DNA from: Planctomycetota bacterium
Lineage (GTDB): Bacteria > Planctomycetota > Phycisphaerae > Phycisphaerales > UBA5793
Direction of reading: 5' to 3'
Assembly: GCA_963205185.1 (NCBI GenBank)
Contig: CAUJHZ010000038.1
Span: 1-64,000, forward strand
DNA length: 64,000 nucleotides
Shown: piece after piece, positions 6,767-61,877 of the stretch
How positions within the stretch are numbered: position 1 is the stretch's first letter
Layout of the letters: each line of letters begins with the position of its first letter
Notes under the pieces: model-generated
Database searches by the model: none
Seen by the model: the letters and a program-made list of their open reading frames with translations, nothing else
What the model was told of the DNA's origin: nothing
Made by a program: the position numbers and the translations under genes

Positions 6767-7777
6767 TTACGGAATCTGTCCGACGTTGCTCGTCGTGCAG
6801 GGGCTCGCGTCCACGACGACGAGTTGGAGGTATCCGCCGCAGGCGCTGGTGCCGACGTTGCCGCTGACCGTGCCCATACCGCTTCCGGTGGACAGGGTGC
6901 GGACGAGTTGCAGCTGCGTGGTGCCCAAGCCGAGCATCGTGCCGGCGCACGGCCCGCCGCCAACGGTGAATGAGCCGGTGTTGAGAGCGAAGACGATGCC
7001 CATCGTGCTGCTGGGCGTCGCGTTGGACCAGTCAAGGCTGATCGAGCCAGGGCAGGCGCCAGACACGCGCAGGCGGAACGACCCGCTCACGCCCATGACG
7101 TAGTTGATGGCGTTGGCCATCATGACGGCGCCGTCGGTGTTCGCGTCCCAGAAGTCGGCGCGCGAAAGACTCGATGGGGCGTAGAAGTTGAGCCCGATGA
7201 TGCCCGCGGCGAAGCCGGGCATCTCGACGACAAGCGGCCGACTGTTGGACCAGTCGGCGATGAGAATACCGCCGGGCGAGACGCCGCCTGTGTTGTGGTA
7301 GCTCGACGCCCCTCCCGAGAACGTCGAGACGCCGGCCAGGACAGGATGGCTGGGATCGTGAACAGTGCCGAGCGTCAGCGGTACTCCCTGCGACTGGCTG
7401 GCGGTCTGCAGCGGCGAGTAGCCGCCTGAGAACCAGCGGCCGCCGGGGCCGACGTTCCATGAGAAGGTGGTCTGCACGACGCCGCCGCCGGCATCGACGA
7501 AGTCGGCCAGGGCGTTGCCCCATGCATTGGGATCGAGTGGGCTGGCGTCAGTGAACGACAGCACGGCGTCGTACGCTGCAAGATTCGGGGTGCCGGTGGT
7601 GAGATCAAAGGTGTCCACGTTCTGCCCGCCGAGCAGCCCGGTGGCGAGAATCGTGCTGCGCACTTCGCTGATCCAGGTGCTGTTGGCTGCGCCCGCGATG
7701 AGCACATCAGCCTGCGCGCCGCCTGCGCACGCCAGCGTCGCGGCGGCGCATAGAGTTCCGAACCGAAGTGATGCCAT
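6767..7777 (-). CDS. Exported protein with glutaminase-fold-like N-terminus and shared C-terminal Cys module
   Basis: This 336-residue protein has a signal peptide (MASLRFGTLCAAATLACAGG, cleavage near ADV) and an AGGAGGAGAG ribosome binding site. Residues 23-230 have alternating strands and helices (DVLIAGAANSTWISEVRSTI, YDAVLSFTDA, LADFVDAGGGVVQ) and look like a class-I glutaminase/ThuA-type flavodoxin fold, but I see no catalytic Cys-His pair. Residues 234-336 form a module found in four other exported proteins of this window, with cysteines at 242, 277, 313 and 327 and the motif GGGPCAGTMLGLG. No C-terminal membrane helix or PEP-CTERM tail follows. Function is unknown. Confidence 0.8.
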   Translation of the reverse strand: MASLRFGTLCAAATLACAGGAQADVLIAGAANSTWISEVRSTILATGLLGGQNVDTFDLTTGTPNLAAYDAVLSFTDASPLDPNAWGNALADFVDAGGGVVQTTFSWNVGPGGRWFSGGYSPLQTASQSQGVPLTLGTVHDPSHPVLAGVSTFSGGASSYHNTGGVSPGGILIADWSNSRPLVVEMPGFAAGIIGLNFYAPSSLSRADFWDANTDGAVMMANAINYVMGVSGSFRLRVSGACPGSISLDWSNATPSSTMGIVFALNTGSFTVGGGPCAGTMLGLGTTQLQLVRTLSTGSGMGTVSGNVGTSACGGYLQLVVVDASPCTTSNVGQIP

Positions 7778-8047: not shown

Positions 8048-9448
8048 TCAACCTCTTCGCCCGCGGATGCGGTCCCCGCTGCCGCCGCCGAGGAAGCCGG
8101 AGTAGTTGCGCATGAGCAGGTTCGCTTCGATGCGCTGGACGAAGTCCAGGCCGACGCTGACGACGATGAGCAGCCCCGTGCCGCCGAGGAAGCTCGACAC
8201 GACAAAGGGAATCTGCATGGCGCCGGCCACGACCGACGGGATGACCGCGATGATGGCGAGGAACCCGGCGCCGACGTAGGTGACGCGCTCGAGCACGGTC
8301 TCAAGGTATTCTGCCGTGCGCGGGCCGGGGCGCAGGCCCGGGATGAACGAGCCGTGATCGCGCAACTGCTCGCTCATCTCCTTGGGGTTGAACTGGACGG
8401 TGGTCCAGAAGTAACTGAAGAAGTAAATGAGAATGATCTCGCACACGACGTAGGGAAACTTGCCCATCGTCATCGAGTCGCCGAGGAAGCGCGTGAAGTT
8501 GATCCACCACGTTTGTTCGCTGCCCGAGGACATGTTGGCCAGGCTCGAGAAGCCGACTGACGGGAAGATCATCAGCGACTGGGCGAAGATGATCGGCATG
8601 ACGCCGCCGTGGTTGATGCGCAGGGGCAGGAAGGCCTTCTGTCCGCCGTACACCTTGCGGCCGCGCGTGTGCTTGGCCTGCTGAATCGGAATCCGGCGCT
8701 GGGCCACGGTGATGACGATGGCGCCGGCCGTGACCACCATGAACGAGCAAATGAGGAAGATGACTGCGAGTGGGCCGTAGCGGGCGTCGCTGGTGGCGTC
8801 GAGGCTGAAGTCCTGAGCGACGAGGTTCACCGCGGTGGGCATCTGGGCCAGGATGCCCGCAGTAATGATGAGCGACACGCCGTTGCCCAGGCCGTACTTG
8901 TCGATCTGCTCGCCGAGCCACATGAGAAAAGTCGTGCCCGCAACCAGCGCCAGCACGCCTTGGATGCGGAACGACCAGAGCAGGCCGGTGTTGTTGGCGA
9001 TGGTGGGATAGATGAACCCTTGCGACTGCATGTAGGTCATCCACGCGAAGCCCTGGATGACGCACAGCGCGATGGTGGCGTAGCGCGTCCACTCGGTGAT
9101 CTTCTGGCGGCCGGTGGGGCCTTCCTTCTGAAGATCCTGCAGCGGCTTCCACGCGGAGGCAAGGAGTTGGAAAATGATGGAGGCGGAAATGTAGGGCATC
9201 ACGCCCAGGCCGAAGATCGTGGACTGGCCGAGGTCGCCTCCGGTGAACGTGGAGATGTACAGAGCCAGCTTGGTCGCGGCGTTGCTGTCCGAGCCCCGTT
9301 GACTGAAGAACTGCTCAAGTTGCGACTGGTCGACGCCTGAGAGGGGAATCCAGAAACCGATCCGATAGATCGCGAGCATCGCGATCGTGAAGAGCAGTTT
9401 GTTTCTCAGTTCGGGGATGCGAAAGACATTGATGAAGGCCTGGAACAT
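8048..9448 (-). CDS. secY: Preprotein translocase subunit SecY
   Basis: SecY forms the protein-conducting channel of the Sec translocon in the inner membrane. The 466-residue product shows the usual ten hydrophobic segments, the N-terminal IPELRNKLLFTIAMLAIYRIG and the loop QQAKHTRGRKVYGGQKAFLP. The C-terminus is the cytosolic NLLMRNYSGFLGGGSGDRIR. It is the last gene of the ribosomal cluster, 88 bases after rplO. I chose the ATG at 9448; a TTG at 9469 would add seven residues and has a slightly better AGGA upstream, so the start is uncertain. The genes often found next in other bacteria (adk, map, infA, rpmJ) are absent here. Confidence 0.97.
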   Translation of the reverse strand: MFQAFINVFRIPELRNKLLFTIAMLAIYRIGFWIPLSGVDQSQLEQFFSQRGSDSNAATKLALYISTFTGGDLGQSTIFGLGVMPYISASIIFQLLASAWKPLQDLQKEGPTGRQKITEWTRYATIALCVIQGFAWMTYMQSQGFIYPTIANNTGLLWSFRIQGVLALVAGTTFLMWLGEQIDKYGLGNGVSLIITAGILAQMPTAVNLVAQDFSLDATSDARYGPLAVIFLICSFMVVTAGAIVITVAQRRIPIQQAKHTRGRKVYGGQKAFLPLRINHGGVMPIIFAQSLMIFPSVGFSSLANMSSGSEQTWWINFTRFLGDSMTMGKFPYVVCEIILIYFFSYFWTTVQFNPKEMSEQLRDHGSFIPGLRPGPRTAEYLETVLERVTYVGAGFLAIIAVIPSVVAGAMQIPFVVSSFLGGTGLLIVVSVGLDFVQRIEANLLMRNYSGFLGGGSGDRIRGRRG

Positions 9449-9536
9449 GGTGAGCAAGCCAATCTGCAAGTCAGTCCTGATCGGTCAGCAGCGCCGTCCA
9501 TCGGGCCCGGCGGCACGCGAGGCGCAATCGAGGCGA

Positions 9537-10034
9537 TTACTTCTTCTTCGACTTGGCGCCGGCGGCGGGCCGCTTCCACGTGGTCTTCATGCTCAGTTCG
9601 ATACTGCCGCCCGCCTGCTCGATTTTGGCGCGGGCTGTCTCGGAGACCTTGCCGGCCGAGATTGACAGCTTCTTGGTCAGATCGCCGCTGCCAAGCACCT
9701 TGACGGGCAGCTCCGTATCGCGAATGAGCCCCTTGGCGATGAGTGAGTCGGCGTTGACGGTCTCGCCGGCGTTGAAATGCTTCTCCAGGTCACGGACGTT
9801 GACGACGTAGAACGTCGTGGCAAAGGCCTTATTGGAGAAACCTCGCTTGGGGATTCGCCGGAAGTAGGCGAGCTGTCCACCCTCGCGGGCGAGTTTTTCG
9901 CTCCAGCCGCTGCGGGACTTGGCGCCCTTGTGGCCGCGTCCGGAGGTCTTGCCGTGCCCGGAGCCGCGCCCGCGCCCGATGCGCTTGCGTGCTTTGTAGG
10001 GCTCGACGAGGCTTGTGATCTCGTGGATCATCAT
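9537..10034 (-). CDS. rplO: 50S ribosomal protein L15
   Basis: The 165-residue product has the typical N-terminal RIGRGRGSGHGKTSGRGHKG that threads into the large subunit, the internal GWSEKLAREGGQLAYFRRIPKRGF, and a basic C-terminus ending in KSKKK. Length is slightly above the usual 145-150. Two consecutive ATG codons (10034 and 10031) could serve as start. It directly follows rpsE; in most bacteria rpmD (L30) lies between these two genes, but the 87-base gap here has no room for it. Confidence 0.97.
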   Translation of the reverse strand: MMIHEITSLVEPYKARKRIGRGRGSGHGKTSGRGHKGAKSRSGWSEKLAREGGQLAYFRRIPKRGFSNKAFATTFYVVNVRDLEKHFNAGETVNADSLIAKGLIRDTELPVKVLGSGDLTKKLSISAGKVSETARAKIEQAGGSIELSMKTTWKRPAAGAKSKKK

Positions 10035-10121
10035 GATGCGAACTCTCTTTCGAACAGCCGGTCGCCCTCGCGGCGGCCGCGTTGATCATTCCTGGTGCCC
10101 CGCGCGGATCGCGGAGCGGAT

Positions 10122-10823
10122 TCAGCCTGCGGGCTGCTCGGTCTGGCCGCCCTGGGCGCCTCCGTCGGTGGAGCCGGTGTCGGAAGACCGGCCGCGGCGC
10201 GAACGGCCGCGTCCGCCGCCCTCTCCCCCGCCGCGTCGTCCGCCGCGCCCGCCGCCGGACTGCTCCGTTTGCTTGGGTTCCTTGCGGACGTATTCGACTT
10301 CGGGTGCGTTGGCGGTGAATTCTTCGACGTGAGTGGTTTCGATGCTCACGCCGCGCAACTCTTCGATCTTCTTCTTGGAGCGGAGTTGCTTGAGGCCTTC
10401 CATCGTCGCCTTGACGAGATTCTTCTTGTTGGTTGAGCCGTAGCACTTGGTCAGGCAGTCGCGCACGCCGGCGAGTTCGAGCACCGCGCGGACGGTGCCC
10501 CCGGCCACGACGCCGGTGCCGGGGCTCGCCGGAAGCATGCGCACTTCGCTGGCGCCGTAGCGGCCCAGAACGGTGTGCGGAATGGTGCCCTTGATGAGCT
10601 CGACCTTGGTCAGGCTGCGGCGGGCATCCTTCTCGGCCTTTTCAATCGCCGGCGGCACTTCCTTGCCCTTGGCGTAGCCGTAGCCGACCCGGCCGCGCCG
10701 ATCGCCGACCACGACGAGCGCGCCGAAACTGAAACGGCGACCGCCTTTGACCGTGGCGGCGGTGCGGAACACGCCGACCGTGTTGGACTCAAAGCCTTGT
10801 GATTCGCTGGATTCGTCAATCAT
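10122..10823 (-). CDS. rpsE: 30S ribosomal protein S5 with Gly/Arg-rich tail
   Basis: S5 helps maintain decoding accuracy. The core (about residues 10-165) carries the double-stranded-RNA-binding-like N-domain (VFRTAATVKGGRRFSFGALV, GYGYAKGKEVPPAIEKA) and the C-domain with ASPGTGVVAGGTVRAVLELA. After residue 185 there is an unusual low-complexity tail of about 45 residues, mostly Gly, Arg and Ser (GGRGGRRGGGEGGGRGRSRR), ending with a Gln/Thr/Gly stretch. E. coli S5 has 167 residues; this one has 233. I used the ATG at 10823; an in-frame ATG at 10856 would add eleven residues. Confidence 0.96.
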   Translation of the reverse strand: MIDESSESQGFESNTVGVFRTAATVKGGRRFSFGALVVVGDRRGRVGYGYAKGKEVPPAIEKAEKDARRSLTKVELIKGTIPHTVLGRYGASEVRMLPASPGTGVVAGGTVRAVLELAGVRDCLTKCYGSTNKKNLVKATMEGLKQLRSKKKIEELRGVSIETTHVEEFTANAPEVEYVRKEPKQTEQSGGGRGGRRGGGEGGGRGRSRRGRSSDTGSTDGGAQGGQTEQPAG

Positions 10824-10889
10824 GTTCGTTGATCCGATTCTGTCAGCCGCGTGCATCGCGGCAATGTGTGGCGTTCCTTGGCGGCCCGA

Positions 10890-11252
10890 TCAGAACTGAA
10901 GTCCGCCTTCGCGGGCCGCGTCGGCCAGGGCCTTGACCCGGCCGTGGTAGCGCAGGCCGTTGCGGTCGAACTGCACCTGCTTCACGCCGGCCTGCCCGGC
11001 TCGCTGGGCCAGCAGCGTGCCGACTGTCTTGGCGGCCTTGATGTCGCCGGTCGATTCGCCCTTGAACTCCGCGTCGCGCGAGGACGCGGCGGCGATGGTG
11101 CGGCCGGCCACGTCGTCGATCACCTGGGCGTAGAGGTAGCGCAGCGAGCGGTAGATCGAAAGGCGCGGCCGATCGGGCGTGCCGAAGATGCGCTTGCGCA
11201 TGCCGCGGCGGCGGCGCTGGCGGCGGAGAACTCGATCCGATGTGCGACTCAT
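10890..11252 (-). CDS. rplR: 50S ribosomal protein L18
   Basis: This 120-residue 5S-rRNA-binding protein has the basic N-terminus [20 protein letters not shown] and the conserved [20 protein letters not shown], ending in the family's usual [34 protein letters not shown] precedes the ATG. It lies 50 bases after rplF, in standard spc order. Confidence 0.97.
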
Positions 11253-11302
11253 GTCCGTATCCTCCCGGGACCTGGCCCGAGTGTGTCAACCAGCCGCCGG
11301 CA

Positions 11303-11857
11303 TCAGCGGCCGACGACGGTCTTGCCTTCCTTGCGGATGATCTGTTCATCCGTGTACTTCACGCCCTTGCCGTTGTACGGCTCGGGCTTGCGCTTGGCGC
11401 GAATGGTGGCGGCGAACTGGCCGACCAGCTGCTTGTCGGGCGAGTTCAGCGTGATGATCTGTCGCTCGACGCCGACCTTGAGACCCGCGGGCACGGGGAG
11501 TTCAACCGGCTTCGAGTAGCCGAGATTGAGCACAAGTTTGTTGCCCTGCAGGTTCGCGTTCCAACCCACGCCGACCACTTCGAGCTTCTTCTCGTAGCCC
11601 TTGGTCACGCCCTTGACCATGTTCTGGATGAGCGAGCGGGTCGTGCCCCAATACGCTTTGTAGGCCTGGTCGCGCATGCGGTTCTCGGGAATCGTGCAGA
11701 CGACTTCGCGTTTGGTTGAATCCCACTCCACCGCGACTTCGGGGCGATGGGTGAAACTGAGCTTCTTGTCGCCCTTTTCGATGGTGACGGCGCGATTGTT
11801 GATCGTGACGTTCACACCGGCGGGGACGGCGACTGGTTTTTTTCCGACTCGAGACAT
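11303..11857 (-). CDS. rplF: 50S ribosomal protein L6
   Basis: The 184-residue product has the two homologous alpha/beta domains of L6. The N-terminus reads MSRVGKKPVAVPAGVNVTI. The second-domain signature PEPYNGKGVKYTDEQIIRKE near the C-terminus is the standard L6 signature that contacts 23S rRNA near the sarcin-ricin loop. Length is normal (about 178). AGGAG precedes the ATG. Confidence 0.98.
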   Translation of the reverse strand: MSRVGKKPVAVPAGVNVTINNRAVTIEKGDKKLSFTHRPEVAVEWDSTKREVVCTIPENRMRDQAYKAYWGTTRSLIQNMVKGVTKGYEKKLEVVGVGWNANLQGNKLVLNLGYSKPVELPVPAGLKVGVERQIITLNSPDKQLVGQFAATIRAKRKPEPYNGKGVKYTDEQIIRKEGKTVVGR

Positions 11858-11918
11858 GATTCAGACTCCTGCTGGGCTTGGCCGTGATGGCAGCGCCAGG
11901 CGATTCCGGCGCCGCGGG

Positions 11919-12317
11919 TCAATCGACCGTGGCCAGCAACTCGCCTCCGACTTTGAATTCACGACACTTTCGATCGCTGAGCACGCCGCGGCTGGTGGAC
12001 ACGATGGAAATGCCCAAACCGTCGAGCGGCCTCTTGAGACTGTCCACTCCGGTGTAGACGCGCTTTCCGGGCTTGCTCTCGCGGCGAATGTTGTGGAGGA
12101 TCGTCTCGCCGCGCGGGCCGTACTTGAGATGCACGCGGATCAGGCCGCCCAGGCCGTTGTCGATCACGTCGTAACTCTGGATGTAACCCTCGTCGCGCAG
12201 CACGTCGCACACGCCGCGGCAGACGCGGCTGTTGATGCAGTTGACCGTCGTCGAGCGGTTGCGCAGCCCGTTGCGGATGCGAGTGAGCAGATCGGAAATC
12301 GGGTCGTTGAATGACAT
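11919..12317 (-). CDS. rpsH: 30S ribosomal protein S8
   Basis: The 132-residue product starts with NDPISDLLTRIRNGLRNRST, as in all S8 proteins, and has the C-terminal signature SLKRPLDGLGISIVSTSRGV, which binds the central domain of 16S rRNA. In E. coli, S8 represses the spc operon by binding its mRNA near rplE; no equivalent site was identified here. Length is normal. Confidence 0.98.
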   Translation of the reverse strand: MSFNDPISDLLTRIRNGLRNRSTTVNCINSRVCRGVCDVLRDEGYIQSYDVIDNGLGGLIRVHLKYGPRGETILHNIRRESKPGKRVYTGVDSLKRPLDGLGISIVSTSRGVLSDRKCREFKVGGELLATVD

Positions 12318-12393
12318 CAGTCAAACCCTCGTGTAGTCGTTCCATCAGGGGCCGCCGCCCGGCGCCTCGGCGCTCGGCGGCGACCGGTGTGTG

Positions 12394-12579
12394 TTACCAA
12401 CTGGCCTTGCGCATGCCGGGAATGAGCCCCTGGTGCGCCAGTTCGCGCAGCATGATGCGGCTCACTCGAAACTTGCGGTACACCCCGCGCGAGCGGCCGG
12501 TGATCTCGCACCGCCGCACCTTGCGCGTCGAGAACTTCGGGGGCCGCTTCAGTTTTGCCATTTGCGCTTTAGTTGCCAT
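12394..12579 (-). CDS. rpsN: 30S ribosomal protein S14, short form lacking zinc ligands
   Basis: This 61-residue protein sits in the usual S14 slot between rplE and rpsH. The C-terminal half ([18 protein letters not shown], then IPGMRKASW) is unmistakable S14. Short S14 proteins of this length normally carry two CxxC pairs that bind zinc. Here only one Cys remains ([16 protein letters not shown]), as in the long zinc-free S14 of E. coli. It thus combines the length of the zinc form with the motif of the zinc-free form. AAGGA precedes the ATG. Confidence 0.95.
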
Positions 12580-12631
12580 CGTCGATTCCTTCGCGGCCGC
12601 AGCCGCGTGCGTTGCAGATTCTGATCCTGTC

Positions 12632-13225
12632 TTATGACTCTTCCCGCTTGAACGGCCAGCCGAGTTCCGCCAGAACGAAGCGGCTGATCTCGGGCGTGGA
12701 ATTGCGGAAGGAGATGTTGATGTGCATGCCGTGCGAGAAGTTCACCTTGCCCATGTCGATCTCGGGGAAGACGGCCTGCTCGCTGAAGCCAAAGGAGTAA
12801 TTCCCCTGCCTGTCGAACGACGTGTCCTTGAGGCCGCGGAAGTCCTTGACGCGGGGGATGGCCAGGTGGATGAGCCGCGAGAGCAGGCTCCACATCCGCT
12901 CGCGCCGCAGCGTCACCATCGCCGCAGAGGTCGCGCCTTCGCGCACCTTGAAGTTCGCCACCGACTTCTTGGCCGTGAGCAGCACGGCTTTCTGGCCGGA
13001 GATCGTCGAAAGCGTGGAGAGCACCGTGTCGCGCACTTCAGGCTTGAGTTTGTTGTTCTCGAGTTGCTTGCCGACGCCGGTGTTGATGACGACCTTCTCG
13101 ATGCGCGGCAGCGCCATGGGATTGGTGATGCCGAACTTCTCGCGCACTTTGGGGAGAACTTCGTTTTCGAATTTCTCCTGCAGGGCGGTCTTTTTCGTCG
13201 CCGGGGCTGTTGCTGCTGGACTCAT
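12632..13225 (-). CDS. rplE: 50S ribosomal protein L5
   Basis: L5 binds 5S rRNA and contacts the P-site tRNA. The 197-residue product has the typical [17 protein letters not shown], the loop [20 protein letters not shown], and the ending [20 protein letters not shown]. An Ala/Pro/Thr-rich N-terminal stretch of about 10 residues precedes the conserved core. Upstream spacing is 55 bases from rplX; the Shine-Dalgarno is weak. Confidence 0.97.
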
Positions 13226-13280
13226 GGCGTGATTCCGATTCTCGATCAGGTGCGGGCGAATGCTGGTCCGCCGCGATCAG

Positions 13281-13769
13281 TTATTTCTTGGCCGTCTTCT
13301 TCTTGCTGGTCCGGGTCGAGGCCTTCTTGGCGGGCTTGGCCGGCGCCTTCTTTGCGCTCTTACTGGCGGCCTTCTTCTTCGTGGTTTTCTTCTTCGTCGT
13401 CTTCGTCTGGGCGGCGCGAGCCGGCTTGGCGGCTGCTCCGTCCCGCGGGCCGTGCACGGCGCCGAGTTCCTGTCCGCCGCGGGCTGCCACGCGGACCTTC
13501 GAGCCATCGGGCTTGACGGTGAAGCGGACGCGGGTGGCGCGGCCATCGACGACGGGGCTCACGTTGGAGATGTGAATGGGCATCTCCTTGGTGATGACGC
13601 CGCCCTGCGGGTTCGTCTGCGACGGCTTGAGGTGCTTGGTGCGGGTGTTGAGGCCCTGCACGACGACCTGGCTCTTCTTGGGAATGACCTTGAGCACGGT
13701 GCCCGTGCGGCCCTTGTCGGACCCGGCCGTGACGATCACCGTATCACCGCTGCGGACATGGGCTGGCAT
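13281..13769 (-). CDS. rplX: 50S ribosomal protein L24 with histone-H1-like tail
   Basis: The first 105 residues are a normal L24 with a KOW motif (VRSGDTVIVTAGSDKGRTGT) and VVVQGLNTRTKHLKP; L24 starts assembly of the 50S subunit. After residue 112 comes a tail of about 50 residues composed almost only of Lys, Ala, Thr, Ser and Pro (repeats such as KKKTTKKKAASKSAKKAPAK), similar in composition to histone H1 or bacterial AlgP-type tails. Typical L24 is about 105 residues; this one has 162. Its ATG overlaps the rplN stop (TGATG), so the two are translationally coupled. Confidence 0.96.
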   Translation of the reverse strand: MPAHVRSGDTVIVTAGSDKGRTGTVLKVIPKKSQVVVQGLNTRTKHLKPSQTNPQGGVITKEMPIHISNVSPVVDGRATRVRFTVKPDGSKVRVAARGGQELGAVHGPRDGAAAKPARAAQTKTTKKKTTKKKAASKSAKKAPAKPAKKASTRTSKKKTAKK

Positions 13770-14155
13770 CAGAGCACCTCCGTGGCAAGCGAGACGATTT
13801 TGAGGTAGTTCTTCTCGCGCAGTTCGCGAGCGACGGCGCCGAAGATGCGCGTGCCCTTGGGATTGCCGTCGTCGTTGATGAGCACGACGGCGCTGTTGTC
13901 AAACCGGATGATCGACCCGTCCGGGCGGCGTGTCGGGTAGGCGGTGCGGACGACGACGGCTTTGACCTTGTCGCCGGCCTTCACGTCTCCGCCGGGCAGC
14001 GCCTTCTTGACCGAGCAGATGACGCGATCACCAACGCCGGCCGTGCGGCGGGTGAAACGTCCCTTGGCGGTTGAGCCGCCGAGCACGCGGATGACGTAGG
14101 CGATTTTCGCGCCCGTGTTGTCCGCCACCTCGACTCGTGATTCCTGCTGTATCAT
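13769..14155 (-). CDS. rplN: 50S ribosomal protein L14
   Basis: The 128-residue product starts [20 protein letters not shown] and contains the signature [20 protein letters not shown] followed by [21 protein letters not shown]14 lies at the subunit interface and contacts 16S rRNA. Length is close to the usual 122. The stop overlaps the start of rplX by one base. Confidence 0.98.
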
Positions 14156-14217
14156 GACTTGATCCGTTCACCTCTGGTCCGCGCCGGCCCGTGGCCCCGC
14201 GGCAACGTGTGTCTGCT

Positions 14218-14538
14218 TCAGCCGACCGACGCCGGGCTCTCGTCGTGCAGCCGGACTTCTCCGACCGCCTTGGCGAGCACCTGAACCACCTTCCACTGCT
14301 TGGTCTTGCTCACCGGCCGGCAGGGCATGATCTGCACCTGGTCGCCCACGCCGCTGACGTTGTTCTCATCGTGCACGGTGAGGTACGAACGGCGCTTGAT
14401 GAACTTGCCGTACTTCGGATGCCGCACCTGGAACTCGATGCGCACGCGGCGGGTCTTGTCGGTCGAAGCGCGATCGACGATGCCGACTTCGACGCGGCGG
14501 TTGCGCTGGCGCGGCTGGCTGGTCGCTTGCGTGCTCAT
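14218..14538 (-). CDS. rpsQ: 30S ribosomal protein S17
   Basis: The 106-residue product has the OB-fold core of S17: [40 protein letters not shown] and the signature [20 protein letters not shown]. Short N- and C-terminal extensions make it longer than the usual 84-90 residues. The ATG overlaps the end of rpmC by four bases (ATGA), indicating coupled translation. Confidence 0.97.
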
Positions 14539-14741
14539 GCCTGGTTCTGCCTTTCCATCTCGCGGCGGCGGCGCTCGGTGAGCAGCCGGGCCACGTCCCT
14601 GCGGGTCTTGCCGAATTGCGATGAATCTTCGATCTTCTCAGTGACGGCCTGCGTGCGCAGGTCGAAGAGATGGCGGCGGATGCGATCCACCTCGACGTCC
14701 ACCTCTTCGTCACTGAGTTTGTGTACTTCTTTGGCCTTCAT
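14535..14741 (-). CDS. rpmC: 50S ribosomal protein L29
   Basis: This 68-residue helical-hairpin protein begins [20 protein letters not shown] and continues [20 protein letters not shown], then a run of basic residues ([14 protein letters not shown]). L29 lies near the peptide exit tunnel and helps bind SRP and trigger factor. The start at 14741 fits family length; a longer open frame upstream is not L29-like. It overlaps rpsQ by four bases. Confidence 0.96.
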
Positions 14742-14791
14742 TGCATCATCCCATCTGCGGGCGGACCGGAGCCGGCGCCGCAACTTGTTCC

Positions 14792-15211
14792 TCAGACGCT
14801 CAGTCGCCTCGTGATCATGCGGCAGCGCACTGGCATCTTCATCGCCACGCGAGCCAGGGCGCCCTGGGCCGCGGCATGCGGTACGCCGGCGATCTCGAAG
14901 AGCACCGTGCCGGGCTTGACGCGCGCTGCCCAGTAGTCCGTTTCCGCCTTGCCCTTGCCCATTCGCGTTTCGATCGGCTTCTTTGAAATCGGCTTGTCGG
15001 GGAAGACGCGGATGAAGACCTTGCCTTCGCGCTGCAGGTAGTGAGCACAAGCGACGCGGCCGGCTTCGAGCTGGCGGGCGCTGACCCATGCGGGCTCAAG
15101 AGCCTGCAGGCCGTAGTCGCCGTAAGCGACGTAGTTGCCCGCCGTCGCCTTGCCGCGCATCCGGCCGCGCTGCTGCTTGCGGAACTTCATTCTCTTGGGC
15201 ATCCGAGGCAT
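14792..15211 (-). CDS. rplP: 50S ribosomal protein L16
   Basis: The 139-residue product shows the L16 signature [20 protein letters not shown] and [20 protein letters not shown], then [10 protein letters not shown]16 shapes the A-site tRNA binding region of the 50S subunit. Length is normal (136-144). A GAGAGGATG site precedes the start. Confidence 0.98.
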
Positions 15212-15285
15212 CGGAATTCATCCTCTCGTTGCGATCCGCGACCCGGTGGCCGCGGCGAATCCAGTCACGTCACCGACCAACCAAC

Positions 15286-15984
15286 TCAACGCCGTCCTCG
15301 AGCGCGGGCCCGGCCGCCGGCCGCAGTCGACTCGGCTTCTTCGCCTGCTTCGTAGAGACCCTTGTAGACCCACACCTTGACGCCGATCGTGCCGGACTTG
15401 GTGAAACTCGGCGCGAATCCGTAGTCCACGTTGGCCTGCAGCGTCTGCAGCGGGATCGAGCCGAGGCTCACCGTAAGGCTGCGACTCATTTCAGCGCCGC
15501 CGAGACGGCCCGAGACGCTGATCTTCACCCCCTTGGCGCCGGCCTGCATCGCGCCTTCAGCGCGCATCTTGAGGATGCGGCGGAAACTGGCGCGCTTCTT
15601 CAACTGCTCGGCAATGCCTTCGGCGATCAACTTCGCGTTCGTGTCAGGGCTCTTGATCTCGACGATCTTGATGGACACCTGCCGGCCCGTCATCGTCTGC
15701 AGATCCTGCTGCAGCTTTTCGACTTCGGCGCCGCGCGGCCCGATGACCAGCCCCGGGCGGGCGGTCTTGAGCACGATCGAGAGTTCCTGACGGGTGCGCT
15801 CGATGTGGATCTCGGAGACGGCGGCAAACGGCGGCGTGCGGTTCAGGCGCTTGTCAACGTACTCGCGGATGCGGTAGTCCTCGACGAGCAGTTCGCCGTA
15901 GAGCGCCTTGGGCGCGTACCACCGGCTGCGGTGCGGCTCGGTGATGCCGATGCGGAAGCCCAGCGGATGTGTCTTCTGTCCCAT
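15286..15984 (-). CDS. rpsC: 30S ribosomal protein S3
   Basis: The 232-residue product begins MGQKTHPLGFRIGITEPHRS, has the KH domain (IVLKTARPGLVIGPRGAEVE) and the C-terminal S3 domain (GAKGVKISVSGRLGGAEMSR). S3 lies at the mRNA entry site. The start follows the rplV stop by only two bases. The C-terminus ends with a short Ala/Gly/Arg run, and length is normal. Confidence 0.98.
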   Translation of the reverse strand: MGQKTHPLGFRIGITEPHRSRWYAPKALYGELLVEDYRIREYVDKRLNRTPPFAAVSEIHIERTRQELSIVLKTARPGLVIGPRGAEVEKLQQDLQTMTGRQVSIKIVEIKSPDTNAKLIAEGIAEQLKKRASFRRILKMRAEGAMQAGAKGVKISVSGRLGGAEMSRSLTVSLGSIPLQTLQANVDYGFAPSFTKSGTIGVKVWVYKGLYEAGEEAESTAAGGRARARGRR

Positions 15985-15986
15985 GG

Positions 15987-16520
15987 TTACGCCACCTCCA
16001 CCGCCACGCGGACGTGGCTGGATCGTTTCATGATCGGGTGCGCCCGGCCGCGGTCCTTGGGCTGGAAGCGCTTCATCGTCGGACCTTCATCGACGCGCGA
16101 CTCGCTCACGACGAGGCGGCTGATGTCGGCCTCGTTTTCCTCTGCACAGGCGATGGCCGATTCCAGCGCCTTGCGGACGAACACGGCGGCCCGCTTCTTG
16201 CTGAACTTGAGCATCGTCAGCGCGGTGTCGATGTCGCGGCCGCGAATGAGATCGGACACGAGCCTGATCTTGCGCGGCGAGATGCGGGCCCACTTGTGCG
16301 CGCCGTCGAAGCACACGATCTCGCTGACGGGCACATTGAGCGCGGCCGCGAGCGATCGCAGGTCTTCGCGCCTGGGCGCGGGCTTGAAGTTGCCCTTGCT
16401 CCAGTTGCGCAGCGCCGAGGTCGCGTTGATGCCGGGCCGCTTGATCTCGGAGGCGAGATCCTCGGGCCTGATGCCGGCCGCCTTGATCCTGGCATTGAAC
16501 TTGGATGCGTTGAGATTCAT
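15987..16520 (-). CDS. rplV: 50S ribosomal protein L22 fused to an N-terminal HTH-like domain
   Basis: Residues from about 75 to 177 are a complete L22: [40 protein letters not shown] and the loop-tip region [20 protein letters not shown], which lines the exit tunnel. Residues 1-72 precede it and are absent from ordinary L22 (about 110 residues). They read like an XRE/cI-type helix-turn-helix: [12 protein letters not shown], then [20 protein letters not shown] and [15 protein letters not shown]. The whole reading frame is open and fills the gap after rpsS, with AGAGG upstream of the ATG at 16520, so the extension is probably translated. Its role is unknown. Confidence 0.95.
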
Positions 16521-16548
16521 AGTGCGTCAACCTCTGCCCGCCGCGGGC

Positions 16549-16839
16549 TCATTTCTTCACGCCGGCGGCGAGGCCTTCCTTCTTGTTGGTGTGGCCTCGG
16601 AACACGCGCGTCGGGCTGAATTCGCCGAGCTTGTGTCCCACCATGTCCTCGGTGACGAACACGTCGAGAAACGAGCGGCCGTTGTGCACCTTGAACGTGT
16701 GGCCCACGAACTCGGGCACAATGGTGCAGCGGCGAGCCCACGTCTTGATCGGCTCGCGCCGGCCGGTCTGGGACATCCGCTGAACTTTGACGAAGAGGTG
16801 CTCTTCGACGAACGGACCTTTTTTCAATGATCGGGCCAT
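16549..16839 (-). CDS. rpsS: 30S ribosomal protein S19
   Basis: The 96-residue product starts [20 protein letters not shown] and contains [20 protein letters not shown] and [19 protein letters not shown], all standard S19. S19 is part of the 30S head next to S13. GAGGAATCTGATC precedes the ATG at 16839, 11 bases after the rplB stop. A longer frame runs in from rplB but is only a shadow. Confidence 0.98.
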
Positions 16840-16850
16840 GATCAGATTCC

Positions 16851-17705
16851 TCAGAGAGTCAACTGGCCGTAACGCTTGCTGCGGCGACGGCGGATGATGC
16901 GCTTGTTGCTGGCGAGTTTGCGCTTGCGGGTGCGGCCGCCCTTGGCGAACACGCCGGTCTTGCCCGCGGGGGCGCGGCCGCCCTTGGACTTGCCTTCGCC
17001 GCCGCCCAGCGGATGGTCGTAGTGGTTCCGGACCATGCCGCGCGTCTTGGGCTTGCGGCCGCGGTGACGGCTGCGGCCGGCCTTGCCCAGCGTGATCTGC
17101 TGGTGGTCGGTGTTGCCCACTTCGCCGATGGTCGCGCGGCACTCGACCGACACCTGGCGGATTTCACCCGAAGGCATCACCAGCGTCGCCCACTTGTCTT
17201 CGCGGTTGGTCAGGCGAGCCGACATGCCCGCGGCCCGGCAGAGCTGGCCGCCCTTGCCCGGCACCATCTCGACGCAATGCACGTTGAGGCCGGTGGGGAT
17301 GTACTTGAAGGGCATGCAGTTGCCGACCTTGGGCTCGACGCGGCCGCGACCGCTCATGAGCACGTCGCCGTCCTTGACGCCTTTGGGCGCGATGATGTAG
17401 CGACGCTCGCCGTTCTCGTATTCGAGCAGGGCGAGGTGGGCGGATCGGTTCGGGTCGTATTCGATGCCGATGACCTTGGCGGGCATGTCATCGAGATTGC
17501 GCTTCCAGTCGACGGCGCGATAGCGGCGCTTGTGTCCGCCGCCGCGACCCCAGGCGGTGATCTTGCCCTGGTTGTTGCGGCCCGCGGTCTTGCTGTAGCG
17601 GCGCAGCAGCGACTTCTCAGGCGACTGCTTGGTCACCTCGGCATGGAGGTTGACCGAGGAGTTCCTCCGCCCGGCGCTCGTTCTTTTGTACACTCGAATC
17701 GGCAT
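16851..17705 (-). CDS. rplB: 50S ribosomal protein L2
   Basis: L2 is needed for peptidyl transferase activity and subunit joining. The 284-residue product has the OB and SH3-like domains and the C-terminal signature [20 protein letters not shown], which includes the conserved histidine region at the active centre. GAGGA precedes the ATG. Length is normal (about 275). Confidence 0.98.
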
Positions 17706-17754
17706 GATTCAATCCTCGCAGTCGCCGCGCCGGCGCTGGGGCCGACGCACTCAT

Positions 17755-18030
17755 TCAGAACAGTTCGATCCGATCGTCAGGATGCACGCGAACGACGGCC
17801 TTGCGCAGATCGGGGGTTCGCGTGTAGCCGAACCGCGTTCGGCGGACCTTGCCGATGCGATTGCTCGTGTTCACGCTGAGCACGCGCACCTTGTAGAGAT
17901 CCTCAACGGCACGCTTGATGTCAGGCTTGCTGGCGCGGCGATCAACTTCAAAGGCGTAGCGATTCTGCTCAGCCGCGGCGGTGTTCTTCTCGGTGACCAG
18001 CGGCCGGCGAATGACGGTGGCGGATTCCAT
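17755..18030 (-). CDS. rplW: 50S ribosomal protein L23
   Basis: The 91-residue product begins MESATVIRRPLVTEKNTAAA and has the conserved FEVDRRASKPDIKRAVEDLY and VLSVNTSNRIGKVRRTRFG. L23 sits at the exit tunnel and docks trigger factor and SRP. The start at 18030 overlaps the rplD stop (TAATG); a longer frame would add 16 unrelated residues. Confidence 0.97.
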   Translation of the reverse strand: MESATVIRRPLVTEKNTAAAEQNRYAFEVDRRASKPDIKRAVEDLYKVRVLSVNTSNRIGKVRRTRFGYTRTPDLRKAVVRVHPDDRIELF

Positions 18031-18704
18031 TAGCGGCCTCCCTTGCTGCCCGCGGCGGCGCCGTTGCCGCCCGTGCAATGCTGACTGTCGATGAAGGCCT
18101 GGAGGTTGGCCTTTTCGATGACCAGGTAGCGGTGGTTGAGCAGTTCGAATGCGTTCAACTGGTCCCAGCGGATCGTGTCCACGCTGTCGAGGTTGCGGGC
18201 CGAGAGTCGGGCGTTGACGTTGCCCGAATCCAGCGCGACCAGACAGGTGCGATCGATGCCGACCTTGTCGAGCATCGTCTTGAATTCGCTGGTGCGGGGC
18301 GTCTTGAAGTCGATCTTGTCAATGACCTTGATTTCCTGATCGATGGCCTTGGCCAGCAGCGCGTTGCGATTGGCCAGGCGGCGCATTTTGCGGGGCATGT
18401 CCTGGCGGAAGTCAGCGCCCGTGCGGCGCTTGGCGAAGGCGACGCCGCCGCCCTTCATGACGTTCGTGCGCACGGGGCCGCGGCGGGCGTTGCCCGTGCC
18501 TTTTTGCTTGAAGAGTTTGCGAGTCGAGCCTTCGACGGCGGCGCGGTTCTTCGTGCGGGCCGAACCCTGGCGCCGGTTCGCATGGGAGCGAACGTAGGCC
18601 TGCTTGAGCAGTGCGGGGCGGATCTCGCCGCCGAGCAGCGCTTCGTCGACTTTGAATGTGTCGACCTGCTTGCCTGTTGAATCGTAAATGGGCAGTTCAA
18701 TCAT
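18030..18704 (-). CDS. rplD: 50S ribosomal protein L4
   Basis: The 224-residue product contains the L4 loop RQGSARTKNRAAVEGSTRKL followed by KQKGTGNARRGPVRTNVMKG, which reaches into the exit tunnel, and the C-terminal part with NAFELLNHRYLVIEKANLQA. In E. coli, L4 represses its own operon through the S10 leader; whether that holds here is unknown. AAAGG precedes the ATG. A 205-base spacer separates it from rplC, long for this operon. The C-terminus ends with a Gly/Ala-rich run. Confidence 0.97.
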   Translation of the reverse strand: MIELPIYDSTGKQVDTFKVDEALLGGEIRPALLKQAYVRSHANRRQGSARTKNRAAVEGSTRKLFKQKGTGNARRGPVRTNVMKGGGVAFAKRRTGADFRQDMPRKMRRLANRNALLAKAIDQEIKVIDKIDFKTPRTSEFKTMLDKVGIDRTCLVALDSGNVNARLSARNLDSVDTIRWDQLNAFELLNHRYLVIEKANLQAFIDSQHCTGGNGAAAGSKGGR

Positions 18705-18711
18705 GGTGCGT

Positions 18712-18894
18712 TTACCTTTCGCCTATCCTCCGCCGCCGTCTCTCAGTGCTCTGGCGGGGCAGGAATCGACTCGGTTCTCTGATGCAGCGCTGGGCCGCAC
18801 TACTGAAGCTGTCGTCGCCGGGCAGTTCCCATTGGAACGTCGGGCTTTCCCGGCCGCGGGGGCTGCTCGCCCCAATCGCGTCTATTTCCGTCAA
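18712..18894 (-). CDS. Possible small ORF in the rplC-rplD spacer
   Basis: A frame of 60 codons from TTG at 18894 is preceded by GAGGTGAG and ends in the Shine-Dalgarno region of rplD. The product would begin MTEIDAIGASSPRGRESPTF and end in a basic run (RRRRRIGER). It fills most of an otherwise empty 205-base spacer. It has no known homologue that I recognise and uses a rare start codon, so it may be chance. If real, its stop position would couple it to rplD translation. Confidence 0.22.
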   Translation of the reverse strand: MTEIDAIGASSPRGRESPTFQWELPGDDSFSSAAQRCIREPSRFLPRQSTERRRRRIGER

Positions 18895-18909
18895 CTCACC
18901 TCGTTGTGG

Positions 18910-19596: not shown

Positions 19597-19639
19597 GGCG
19601 ACTTGCTCCGTTGTGGACCAGAGGTCATCGGGGCGCTGC

Positions 19640-19655
19640 CGGTGAACGTTCACCG
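19640..19655. promoter_or_regulatory. 16-bp palindrome in the rpsJ-rplC spacer
   Basis: CGGTGAACGTTCACCG is a perfect palindrome 44 bases before the rplC start, inside an unusually long 189-base spacer. It could be a protein-binding site or part of an mRNA hairpin that regulates rplC. No assignment can be made from sequence alone. Confidence 0.4.
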
Positions 19656-19785
19656 CCGGTTTCCCGCGACGTGGCCGATGCTGAATCCTGGTATCTCAGG
19701 GACTTGCGCGACCGAAGACTCCGGCTGCAGCCCCCACCAATGCAAACGGCCGCCTTTCCAGGTGGCCGCTGCTGACACGATCTTG

Positions 19786-20094
19786 CTACGCCTTGATTTT
19801 AACGAACACGCCCGCGGGAACGACGAGGCGGTTGAGCGCTTCGACGGTGCGGGCATTGGGTTCCTGGATGTCGATGATGCGTTTGTGGGTGCGGATTTCG
19901 AACTGCTCGCGCGACTTCTTGTCGATGTGCGGCCCGCGCAGCACCGTATACCGCTCGATGCGGGTCGGCAGCGGGATCGGGCCGGACACGCGAGCGCCGG
20001 TGCGCTTGGCGTGATCGACGATCTCGCGGGCCGAGGCGTCCAGCGCCTGGTGGTCGTAGGCTTCCATTCGAATGCGGATCTTGGCTTCGGTCAT
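19786..20094 (-). CDS. rpsJ: 30S ribosomal protein S10
   Basis: The 102-residue product has [20 protein letters not shown] and the signature [20 protein letters not shown] followed by [21 protein letters not shown]10 is part of the 30S head and, in many bacteria, the NusE antitermination factor. AGGTGAC precedes the ATG. It is the first gene of the cluster, about 145 bases after the predicted transcription start. No tuf or fusA gene is next to it in this window. Confidence 0.98.
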
Positions 20095-22153: not shown

Positions 22154-23023
22154 TTATGGGATGTTGTCCACGTTGCTCGTGTTGCACGATCCGGCTTCGA
22201 CCAGCTGGAGATAGTGGCCGCACGCGGCGGTGCCGGCGTTGCCATTCACCGAGCCGCTGCCGCCGCCGGTGCCGATGGTGTTGACGAGCTGCACGCCGCC
22301 CTGGACACCCAGTTGCGTGCCGGCGCACGGTCCGCCGGGGATGATCGTCGTGCCTTGGTTCTGGCCGAAGACGATGCCCTGCTGCACGCTTGGCGTGGCG
22401 CCGCTCCACTGGACGGTGACGGTGCCGGGGCACGTGCCGCTGACGCCCAGGCGGTAGCCTCCGACCGCTTCGAAGCGGACATCATCCATGATGGTGATGT
22501 AGCCGTTCTCGACGTCCATCAGGCGCACGTAGCCGATGCCGCCCGAGGCTTCGTAGCCGACGAACACCGCCTGCGCGCCGCCGGGCATCTGCACCTGGCC
22601 CGAGTCGATGAGGTTGTTTGACGGGCCGTAGATCTCGACCGTCCACGTCGTCTGCACGCCGGTGGACAGCAGCATGCCGACTCGATTCGGATTGCCCGCG
22701 CCAGTCAGATCGTACTTCAGATCGGACATACCCCAGCTGTCGGCCAGCGCGCGGCCGAGCGACGCGCCGGGAATGTTGCCGAAGTAGCCGCTCCAGTCGA
22801 TATTACCGCGCCAGCCGCCGAACCCGCTGCCGCCGCCGCTGTCGGTGACGGTGATTCCGCTGCCGATGCTGGCAGTGGGATGGCCGAGCGTCGTCATGTC
22901 CGTGGCGTTGAAGTCAATGACGGTCTCGTTGCCCGAGAAGTCGCCGATCCCGATGAACCCGTCGGCGAGAGCCGCCCCCGACAGCATCAGCGCCGATGCA
23001 CCTGCAAGAATGAACCGCTGCAT
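22154..23023 (-). CDS. Exported beta-rich protein with shared C-terminal Cys module
   Basis: This 289-residue protein has a signal peptide (MQRFILAGASALMLSGAALA) after AGAGAGGGAG. Residues 20-185 look like a jelly-roll domain of the type seen in extracellular PEP-CTERM proteins (VIDFNATDMTTLG, GSGITVTDSGGGSGFG, ITIMDDVRFE). Residues 190-289 are the module shared with four other proteins here: cysteines at 198, 233, 268 and 280 and the motif GGPCAGTQLG. There is no C-terminal membrane anchor. Function is unknown; an outer surface or extracellular location is inferred. Confidence 0.78.
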   Translation of the reverse strand: MQRFILAGASALMLSGAALADGFIGIGDFSGNETVIDFNATDMTTLGHPTASIGSGITVTDSGGGSGFGGWRGNIDWSGYFGNIPGASLGRALADSWGMSDLKYDLTGAGNPNRVGMLLSTGVQTTWTVEIYGPSNNLIDSGQVQMPGGAQAVFVGYEASGGIGYVRLMDVENGYITIMDDVRFEAVGGYRLGVSGTCPGTVTVQWSGATPSVQQGIVFGQNQGTTIIPGGPCAGTQLGVQGGVQLVNTIGTGGGSGSVNGNAGTAACGHYLQLVEAGSCNTSNVDNIP

Positions 23024-47724: not shown

Positions 47725-48843
47725 ATGGCAGCATTGCACATCTGCTCGCGCGCGGCGCGAGCCATCGCATCCCGCCTTTGCGGCCGGCTCGCGCCGGCGG
47801 TTGTCGGCGCGGTCCTGCTGGCCGCAATGGGCTCGGCGTCGGGGCAACTGTTTGTCGGCCTTGAAGGTTCCGCGCCGCCGACGCGATCGACCGATCTCGC
47901 CGGCTTTCCAAACGTGACCTGGAGCGACCACTTTGCGTTTGACGTGAGCGGCGCTGCCGCGTCGCCCGACGGCACGCTCTATCTGTGCAACGGCGCATTC
48001 ACGACGAAGTTGTACACCTCGACGCTGAACGGACCGCCCGTGCTGCGCGCCACGCTCGACACCGACATGCACGCGCTGGCCTTCGGTCGCGGCCGTCTCT
48101 ACGGCTATTCCAACTTCGCCGCAACCAAGGGCATCTACGAGATCGACGTCAACACCGGCGTGTGCACGCTCGTGCTCGACGTATACACGAACACGGGGTT
48201 CCGGTACTTCGGCCTCGACTACAACCCCGCCGATGACCTCTTCTACGGCTACACCGAGTACGGCGACAGCGGGTTGTACTCGATCAACATCGACACCGGT
48301 GAGCAGACGAAGATCGTCGGACCGATCCCGGCATCCAACTCGCAGGGGCGCGGCTTGGCGGTCGGCCGCAACACCGTTTATCTGACGGCGACGCGCGGTG
48401 ACGATGGCATCCCCTACTACGCTTATGACCTTGCACAGGGATCCAACGGCACGTGGGTTCCATTCACGCAACCCTACCCGAACGACCACGCCACGGGCGG
48501 CGCGGCGTACATCGCGCAAGCGGGGTACGACATCGCGCTGCGATTGGTCGGCGAATGCCCCGGACAACTCCGCGCCGCCGTAAACGCCGCGACGCAAGGC
48601 GGGCGGGTCGCGCTCATCTACGCACGCGGCACAGGCGGAGTGCGCATTCCCAATGGGCCGTGCGCCGGCACGCAACTCGGTCTCGACGGCAGCGCGACAC
48701 TGGCATCGCTGCTGACGGCCGACGGACAGGGAAACGCAGCGCTGACGCGCAACGTCGGAGCAAACCTCTGCGGCGGAGCGGTCGTGCTGCAGGCGCTGGA
48801 TGTGACGACGTGCACGCCGTCGAAGGTGGCGGCCACGCCGTAG
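47725..48843 (+). CDS. Exported beta-propeller-like protein with shared C-terminal Cys module
   Basis: The 372-residue product starts at an ATG with GAGGAGA upstream; the longer frame before it is not a gene. A signal peptide (APAVVGAVLLAAMGSASG) is followed by repeated strands resembling a propeller (GTLYLCNGAFTTKLYTST, GRLYGYSNFAATKGIYEID, GLDYNPADDLFYGYTEYGDS). Residues 270-372 are the shared module, with Cys at 278, 313, 349 and 363 and the motif NGPCAGTQLGLDG. Function unknown; extracellular or surface location inferred. It converges with the gene at 48855. Confidence 0.8.
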   Translation: MAALHICSRAARAIASRLCGRLAPAVVGAVLLAAMGSASGQLFVGLEGSAPPTRSTDLAGFPNVTWSDHFAFDVSGAAASPDGTLYLCNGAFTTKLYTSTLNGPPVLRATLDTDMHALAFGRGRLYGYSNFAATKGIYEIDVNTGVCTLVLDVYTNTGFRYFGLDYNPADDLFYGYTEYGDSGLYSINIDTGEQTKIVGPIPASNSQGRGLAVGRNTVYLTATRGDDGIPYYAYDLAQGSNGTWVPFTQPYPNDHATGGAAYIAQAGYDIALRLVGECPGQLRAAVNAATQGGRVALIYARGTGGVRIPNGPCAGTQLGLDGSATLASLLTADGQGNAALTRNVGANLCGGAVVLQALDVTTCTPSKVAATP

Positions 48844-59915: not shown

Positions 59916-60800
59916 TCAGTTAAACGTGAAGTCCACCAGGTTGCTCACCGTGCAACTCGACTGCTCGACCGCCTGCAGAAGCACGCGACGACCGCTCGCG
60001 GCGGGCGGGACGAAGCGGGTGAGATCCGTGTCGCCGAACACGTCGGCCACCTGGCTGCCGGCGATGATCGGAGCGTTCATTCCCACCGTCACTCCCGGGC
60101 AGCCGGGAACGTTGGTCGAGCCGCTTCGCAGCCCATAGATGAAGTGCACCCGCGCGCCCGGAGTGGCGCCATGGGCCGAGAGGATGTTGTTCACTCCGGC
60201 CGTGCCGGGCGACGGCGGATCGAGCGTGAGAGTCTCCAGCCGGACCGTAACGGTATCGATGAGGATGTAGACCACATCATCGCCGCCGGGCCCGGCGGAG
60301 AGGAGCAGTTCGTCAAACTCGGCTCCCCCAACCGAGAGCAGATTGTGGCGCACGAAACTGCCCGTCGAAAGCGTCACGGTGTCGCTGGCGACGAGTTGGC
60401 CGCCGAGGAACGCCTCCAGCGTGAGGGTGCGGTTGTTGTGCAGGTTGCCGAAGTCGTAGACGTGAATGCTCGCGGTGTCGGCGCGCCCCGATACCGGCTC
60501 GATGTGCAGCGAACCGAACTGGCCGAATGACACCCCGCTGCCCGGCACCCACCCGCCAAACGCCAGCGCATTTGGCGCGCTGAAGCCCGGCTGACCCGCA
60601 AGCGTTCCGTCGGCGCGATCGGCCATCATCATGCTGGGCGGTGGCTCGCTGCGATTGTCGTACTCGAAGAACCAGATTCCCGCTTCGACGAACTCTTCGC
60701 CGCCGGCCCCTTCCGGATACGCATCAAACGTGGCGGTCTGGCCCATTGCGGCTGCAGAACTCAGCAGCACGGCTGCTGCGATAACGCTTCCCGACTTCAT
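59916..60800 (-). CDS. Exported protein, duplicated family member with shared C-terminal module
   Basis: The 294-residue product starts at 60800 with AAGGGGAACAGG upstream and a signal peptide (SVIAAAVLLSSAAAMG). Residues 22-185 resemble a jelly-roll extracellular domain (FDAYPEGAGGEEFVEAGIWF, PNALAFGGWVPGSGVSFGQF). Residues 191-294 form the shared module; here the first Cys-Pro-Gly reads SPG and only two cysteines remain (234, 283). It is a tandem paralogue of the gene at 60984-61877. Function unknown. Confidence 0.78.
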   Translation of the reverse strand: MKSGSVIAAAVLLSSAAAMGQTATFDAYPEGAGGEEFVEAGIWFFEYDNRSEPPPSMMMADRADGTLAGQPGFSAPNALAFGGWVPGSGVSFGQFGSLHIEPVSGRADTASIHVYDFGNLHNNRTLTLEAFLGGQLVASDTVTLSTGSFVRHNLLSVGGAEFDELLLSAGPGGDDVVYILIDTVTVRLETLTLDPPSPGTAGVNNILSAHGATPGARVHFIYGLRSGSTNVPGCPGVTVGMNAPIIAGSQVADVFGDTDLTRFVPPAASGRRVLLQAVEQSSCTVSNLVDFTFN

Positions 60801-60921
60801 CCTGTTCCCCTTTCTCTGACAGAGGTGCGCCCGCGACCTGCGGCGAGGTCGCATCAGGCAAGTGTGCGCTCCAGAACTGGTTTCAACAACGGGGAAACGG
60901 CCGCGATTGCGCAAATCGCAG

Positions 60922-60983: not shown

Positions 60984-61877
60984 TCAGTTGAACGTGAAGT
61001 CCACCCGGTTGCTCACCGTGCAACTCGACTGCTCGACTGCCTGGATGAGCACGCGCCGGCCGCTGGCGCCGCCGGGCACGAACTTGACCAGCGTCGCATC
61101 ACCCGTGTTGCTCGCGATGGCGCTGCCGGCGATGGCCGGCGAGGCCATGTCCACCGTCACGCCGGGGCAGCCGGGCACGTTGGTCGAACCCGTGCGCAGG
61201 CCGTAGACGAAGTGGACTCGCGCGCCGGGCGTGGCGTCATGGGCTTCGAACGTGTTGTTGACCCCTGCCGTTCCCGGCGAGGGCGGATCGAGCGTCAATT
61301 CGCCGCCCTGGAAGTTGACGGTAACGGTATCGACGAGGATGAAGGCAACGTCCGTCGTGTTGGGACCGGCGAACATGCGCAGGTGGTCGAACTCGGGTCC
61401 ATCGATGTTCAACTGGCTGTGCCGGATCGAAAACCCGCTGGGCAGGTTGATGGTGTCGGTCGCCACGACGTTGCCGTTGAGCGTGGCTTCGAGGTTGAGC
61501 GTGATGCCCGGGTCATTGCCGAATGAATAGATGTTGACGATCGCCAGGTCGGCCGTGCCGCTGACAGGCTCCATTTCCATCGAGCCGAATCGCGTGAACG
61601 CAGCGCCGTTGCCCGGCGAGTAGCCGCCAAAGCCCAGGGCATTGGGCGGAGTGAACTCCGGCTGGCCGGTGAGATTGCCGTCGGCCCATTCGGCGACCAT
61701 GATGCTCGGCGGCGGGTCGAGGCGGTTGTCGTACTGGTAGAAGCGAATCCCGCCGTCGGTGAAGTCGCGGCCGATGGCGCCTTCGGGGAATGAGTCGAAG
61801 TTGGCAACCTGCCCGAATGAAGCGCCGGCCGCGGCCAGCACTGCGGCGAACGCCAGAGAAGCCCTGAAACTGGTCAT
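60984..61877 (-). CDS. Exported protein, duplicated family member with shared C-terminal module
   Basis: The 297-residue product has a signal peptide (SLAFAAVLAAAGASFG) and AAAAGGGAGATC upstream. The jelly-roll-like part (FDSFPEGAIGRDFTDGGIRF) and the C-terminal module (residues 194-297, ending SCTVSNRVDFTFN) match its paralogue at 59916-60800 almost throughout. In the last 100 residues nearly every position is conserved. Function unknown; surface location inferred. Confidence 0.8.
   Translation of the reverse strand: MTSFRASLAFAAVLAAAGASFGQVANFDSFPEGAIGRDFTDGGIRFYQYDNRLDPPPSIMVAEWADGNLTGQPEFTPPNALGFGGYSPGNGAAFTRFGSMEMEPVSGTADLAIVNIYSFGNDPGITLNLEATLNGNVVATDTINLPSGFSIRHSQLNIDGPEFDHLRMFAGPNTTDVAFILVDTVTVNFQGGELTLDPPSPGTAGVNNTFEAHDATPGARVHFVYGLRTGSTNVPGCPGVTVDMASPAIAGSAIASNTGDATLVKFVPGGASGRRVLIQAVEQSSCTVSNRVDFTFN

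Follow-up and report, generated by a model that had tools for sequence, protein, structure and literature searches.

A cysteine-bearing C-terminal module of exported planctomycete proteins looks like an undescribed sorting or anchoring tag

The window analysed here, a stretch of 64,000 nucleotides (positions 1 to 64,000 of contig CAUJHZ010000038.1, assembly GCA_963205185.1) from a planctomycete of the Phycisphaerales, encodes five proteins that end in the same module of about 100 residues. Three of them carry a four-cysteine type: copy A (6770..7078, minus strand, 103 amino acids) lies in an open reading frame (ORF) of 336 amino acids (6767-7777) behind a signal peptide and a weakly ThuA-like domain, copy B (22157..22456, minus strand) in the ORF 22154-23062, and copy C (48535..48840, plus strand) in the ORF 46954-48843, behind a propeller-like DUF6923/DUF4394 domain. 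Two of these ORFs probably start further downstream than annotated, copy B at the internal ATG of MQRFILAGASALMLSGAALA and copy C at an internal MAALHICSR..., near 47.7 kb. The remaining two modules are of a two-cysteine (GCPGVT) type and are both on the minus strand: copy D (59919..60230, ORF 59916-60932) and its tandem paralogue copy E (60987..61298, ORF 60984-61877). A ribosomal-protein/SecY operon (8048-20094) sits between copies A and B on the same strand; its placement looks incidental.

An earlier note on this DNA had claimed that the five C-termini are homologous, and all five were found at their positions and align well above background. The homology profile, an HMM, was trained exclusively on 108 four-cysteine modules, with the type of copies D and E left out to prevent circularity: it recognised the two excluded copies at 7.5e-15 (D) and 4.3e-14 (E), against 0.87 for the best-scoring of 2000 shuffles, and a profile-profile comparison of the two-cysteine with the four-cysteine type returned 99% probability. 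That the N-terminal domains differ holds for four distinct domains among the five proteins, but not for D and E, whose N-termini are alike (one BLAST cluster); because they have this domain in common, we regard the two as tandem paralogues. The propeller-like domain of copy C was borne out by a DUF6923 match above cut-off; the flavodoxin-like domain suggested for copy A corresponds to a weak match, Pfam ThuA at E=0.0042, below cut-off.

The module is not confined to these five proteins: the genome as a whole (4.55 Mb in 76 contigs) has about 125 full-length copies. A search with copy A gave 124 matches; after the loci were fetched there were 125 distinct full-length modules, including a few that the copy-A search had missed and the profile added. 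In 124 of the 125 the module ends 0-4 residues before the stop codon, and no ORF of this genome has two modules. The sole non-terminal copy (L091) has a signal peptide before the module and a cysteine-rich tail behind it; L111, from another family, is a comparable case with a domain after the module. Contigs C3, C6, C12, C34 and C72 of the window's genome have an end that falls within a module, which is to be expected where an assembly breaks at repeats, and the real copy number is therefore probably higher than about 125.

A crude rule detected a signal peptide in 97 of 114 complete ORFs, and many of the sequences that failed it visibly hold one further in. N-terminal parts with a length of 60 residues or more fall into 55 BLAST clusters; among the domains they contain are Kelch, FG-GAP, SBBP, S8 peptidase, M28 peptidase, beta-helix, CHRD and choice-of-anchor B/Q/R/J, and the module-bearing cargo is thus of the surface-protein sort. 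Within the window's family, homologous N-terminal domains are followed in some proteins by a two-cysteine and in others by a four-cysteine module.

The consensus of the module is xxLxVxGxCPGxxxxxWxGATPxxxxxlvfaxxtGsxxIPgGPCxGTxLGLg...G...ACGgYLQlvdxxxCxTSNVxxIP-stop. Cysteines 2 and 4 are invariant, and the cysteine of strand 1 and cysteine 3 come and go together: both are present in 106 modules and both absent in 17, and the only two mismatches are modules truncated at contig ends. This joint presence and loss points to two predicted disulfides, C2-C4 and, for the main type only, C1-C3. In the numbering of the copy-A module, the predicted pairs are C9-C80 and C44-C94. Copies have a mean identity of about 37%, yet their cysteines and terminal motif hardly vary, and the terminal cysteine with its SN motif is among the best conserved parts. 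The structure prediction that the earlier note had proposed gave a confident result: copies A and D as modelled by AlphaFold (pLDDT 97, pTM 0.87) have a nearly identical strand order and form an Ig-like beta-sandwich of 8-9 strands, in which the disulfide pairs would be those deduced from the paired cysteine loss. Foldseek matched copy A to generic Ig/FnIII-like sandwiches only (PDB and viral libraries) and copy D best to neocarzinostatin-like sandwiches (TM about 0.5-0.6, E about 0.005); for neither copy was there a match as good as E 0.001. Neither a transmembrane stretch nor a basic tail is a feature of the module: a 19-residue hydropathy maximum of at least 1.6 was reached in 1 of 124 modules and a basic tail was present in 4 of 125.

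A third, divergent type of C-terminal sandwich was observed in L074 (2565-4022), L042 (3054-3944) and L015 (1920-3302). It has LGGLCLDL ... GADSVKT ... near the stop codon, lacks the usual cysteines and extends 17-19 residues beyond the module profile. Sandwiches of the GCPG...SN type at the C-terminus seem to be more widely distributed than the main type in Planctomycetota, and perhaps in Myxococcota, and the third type may be linked to them.

The statement that no named family fits the module withstood all searches. Pfam had no match at E<=1 for 46 module members, T9SS sorting-tail profiles included, and NCBIfam returned two unrelated weak matches and no T9SS tail for 32 module members; literature searches found no description of the module either. 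The Ig-like model GxPGS_dom (NF058592) reached E=0.063 for one member, had no match in the genome above its cut-off and was dropped, and the best match of a search against PDB sequences, THAP4 at 0.007, was taken as chance.

Nineteen proteins of the window's genome (L091 excluded) consist of a signal peptide and the module alone. Some of these genes stand in tandem arrays, and the MAG of another species has an array of three (L134). At three loci of the window's genome, an S8 subtilase with a two-cysteine module is directly followed by at least one stand-alone four-cysteine gene: L054 (1539-3609), L028 (1501-3303) and L025 (2-2239), the subtilase of the last being cut at the contig end and recognised via its matching C-terminal part. 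The stand-alone copies argue for a role of the module itself, beyond that of a part which is simply cleaved off. They could also mean that it functions independently, which would count against a tag, as do L091 and L111, which bear a domain after the module.

The distribution of the module is patchy. In the family of the window (f1, two genera), all six genomes have at least 120 copies; at E 1e-5, the module is absent from all 35 genomes of five other families (f2-f6) of the order. f1 is the only positive family among 150 genomes of the class, and in the phylum 36 of 392 genomes are positive. A second family-wide expansion was found in family f78, with 4-49 copies in each of 26 genomes out of 26, likewise C-terminal; the neighbours of f78 are almost all module-negative. 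Named relatives with the module are Phycisphaerales UBA5793, PLA5, PLA1 and PNC21. The MAG PLA1 (L124, L126, L128, L133-L135) is titled Vicinamibacteraceae yet carries several copies of the Phycisphaerales-type module, and is probably mislabelled or contaminated.

Active duplication is evident from the tandem duplicates (D/E and the stand-alone arrays) and from contig ends inside modules, and would fit a hitch-hiking domain, spread by duplication and recombination with no selection for a shared function. Such a domain would hardly keep near-invariant cysteines and a near-invariant terminal motif at so low a mean identity, nor so constrained a position, nor be retained by whole families in two lineages (f1 and f78), and we regard this explanation as highly improbable.

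Were the module a tag, lineages that lack it would be expected to have another C-terminus on homologous cargo. Choice-of-anchor B proteins have the module at their C-terminus in all six f1 genomes (G005 has a cysteine-poor variant), and the complete homologues examined in f2 and f3 have dockerin-like EF-hand pairs at the end, with G032 as the sole exception; these dockerin-like calls were read from the sequences, as the automatic label missed several plain pairs. The N-terminal domain of copy A is followed by the module in four f1 genomes, and its f2 homologues end in dockerin-like pairs and once, in L188, in PEP-CTERM. Whole-genome counts point the same way: there are 2-5 PF00404 dockerins per f1 genome versus mostly 11-66 in f2 and f3 (low in G024, G032, G035 and G039), and 4-19 PEP-CTERM matches per f1 genome versus mostly 37-150 in f5 and f6 (low in G017, G030 and G033), so that the complementarity between families is imperfect. 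Judged from these sequences, the module is exchangeable with other C-terminal tags, dockerin and PEP-CTERM, on homologous cargo, and so it looks like an undescribed tag by which proteins are delivered to the outside of the cell or fixed there.

The exported proteins of f2 and f3 (L150-L201) have a parallel tag economy of their own, with ends made of tandem dockerin-like EF-hand pairs in two styles, CRADxDGDG...FQNEFDxGC and DLNGDG...LLGxWG.

The exchange on the same cargo also bears on another explanation, in which the module would be an Ig-like domain of the ordinary kind, serving adhesion or ligand binding (of exopolysaccharide, for example), that is C-terminal by chance and has no role in sorting. 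The generic Ig/FnIII-like fold matches, the ligand-binding sandwiches of neocarzinostatin type matched by copy D and the secreted stand-alone copies would all suit such a domain. Ordinary adhesive Ig domains are commonly internal and in tandem, however; the module is terminal in all but one of 125 copies, is never present twice in an ORF and gives way to dockerin or PEP-CTERM behind homologous domains, and we consider a purely adhesive role quite unlikely.

The transporter or peptidase gene that the earlier note had envisaged as co-occurring with the module did not appear: inspection of the ORF list showed no common one beside the five window copies. Exosortase was rejected as a partner: every one of the 41 genomes has it, with or without the module and f1 included, so that it does not track the module. 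SprA was detected in none of the 41 genomes, with a positive control that gave no signal either. Thus, checks for exosortase, SprA and window neighbours found no partner gene, be it a transporter, a peptidase or a receptor.

The SprA search relates to the possibility that the module is a translocation signal like the C-terminal domain (CTD) of T9SS substrates: an outer-membrane translocon would read the sandwich, which would then be cleaved off, possibly in exchange for a lipid or sugar anchor. The combination of an Ig-like sandwich with a strict C-terminal position is that of the T9SS CTD (PMC4804311), and the strong conservation of the terminal cysteine and SN motif is consistent with such a signal. 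Against it are the silence of the T9SS tail models in Pfam and NCBIfam, the missing SprA (in a search whose control was silent too), the 19 proteins that have no cargo, and the disulfides and 100-residue domain, which exceed what a short signal needs. A translocation signal of this kind therefore appears unlikely and, given the stand-alone copies and the disulfides, we prefer, with moderate confidence, a docking domain that stays on the protein to a signal that is cleaved.

The earlier note had read the module as a sorting, anchoring or assembly tag, and the terminal position in 124 of 125 copies, the 55 N-terminal clusters and the dockerin-like or PEP-CTERM ends on homologues from sister families support this reading. 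We think that the module is probably a C-terminal sorting or anchoring tag of exported proteins that is mostly retained as a non-covalent docking domain. In the mechanism we propose, the signal peptide at the N-terminus, recognised in the sequences with a crude heuristic, would take the protein across the inner membrane, and the last approximately 100 residues would then fold into the predicted Ig-like beta-sandwich, locked by the putative disulfides. On the cell surface a single shared partner (a receptor, a translocon or a matrix polymer) may recognise the sandwich, probably through the conserved GPCxGTxLGL loop, which C2-C4 would tie to the terminal C-x-x-SNV segment. In f1 the module would thereby fill the role that falls to dockerin in some of the sister families and to PEP-CTERM in other ones, and would mostly stay on the protein for non-covalent docking rather than being cut off. 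More tentatively, it is possible, if on balance doubtful, that the module marks the substrates of a secretion or surface-docking system of planctomycetes that is as yet undescribed, has its own receptor or outer-membrane translocon and replaced dockerin or PEP-CTERM in at least two lineages of the phylum. If the tag reading is true, a single short model would assign the same fate to over 120 exported proteins in each genome of environmental planctomycetes, proteins that nothing else connects, and a folded, disulfide-linked tag would join the known C-terminal sorting tags; its partner should be findable among the genes that f1 and f78 have in common and that are missing from the sister families with dockerin or PEP-CTERM as their tags.

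Several known systems resemble the module. Like the T9SS CTD (Por secretion tail, for example of RgpB), it is an Ig-like sandwich with conserved last residues that forms the very C-terminus of many proteins which have a signal peptide but are otherwise unrelated. In contrast to the T9SS CTD, it has no match to the Pfam and NCBIfam models of that tail, is predicted to have 8-9 strands and a conserved cysteine pattern where seven strands are reported for the RgpB CTD (PMC4804311), and occurs in an order in which SprA was not detected (41 genomes, control silent too). PEP-CTERM was recognised as a sorting signal by its extreme C-terminal position and its many copies in few lineages (PMC1569441). 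The module is similar to the PEP-CTERM/exosortase system (and to GlyGly-CTERM and MYXO-CTERM) in its extreme C-terminal position, in its many copies per genome on unrelated exported domains and in its sporadic distribution by lineage, and PEP-CTERM takes its place on a homologous protein (L188 versus copy A); unlike PEP-CTERM, it has no PEP-type motif, no transmembrane helix and no basic tail, and exosortase does not track it. A cohesin/dockerin complex, the 'planctosome', has been proposed for planctomycetes (PMC6461901). The dockerin-type ends of Phycisphaerae are, like the module, folded C-terminal domains, and in sister families they occupy its place on cargo of the same kinds (choice-of-anchor B, ThuA-like domain), but the module is a beta-sandwich with cysteines and has no calcium-binding EF-hand loops: there are no DxNxDG loops in its consensus and no Pfam match, PF00404 included. 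With the neocarzinostatin and macromomycin apoproteins the module has in common only the fold, an Ig-like sandwich that is secreted and small (about 110 residues); the fold match is at E about 0.005, there is no sequence match, and nothing in the module speaks for a chromophore or toxin role. As its sequence places it outside PEP-CTERM, the T9SS CTD and dockerin, we call the module a new tag that works like them.
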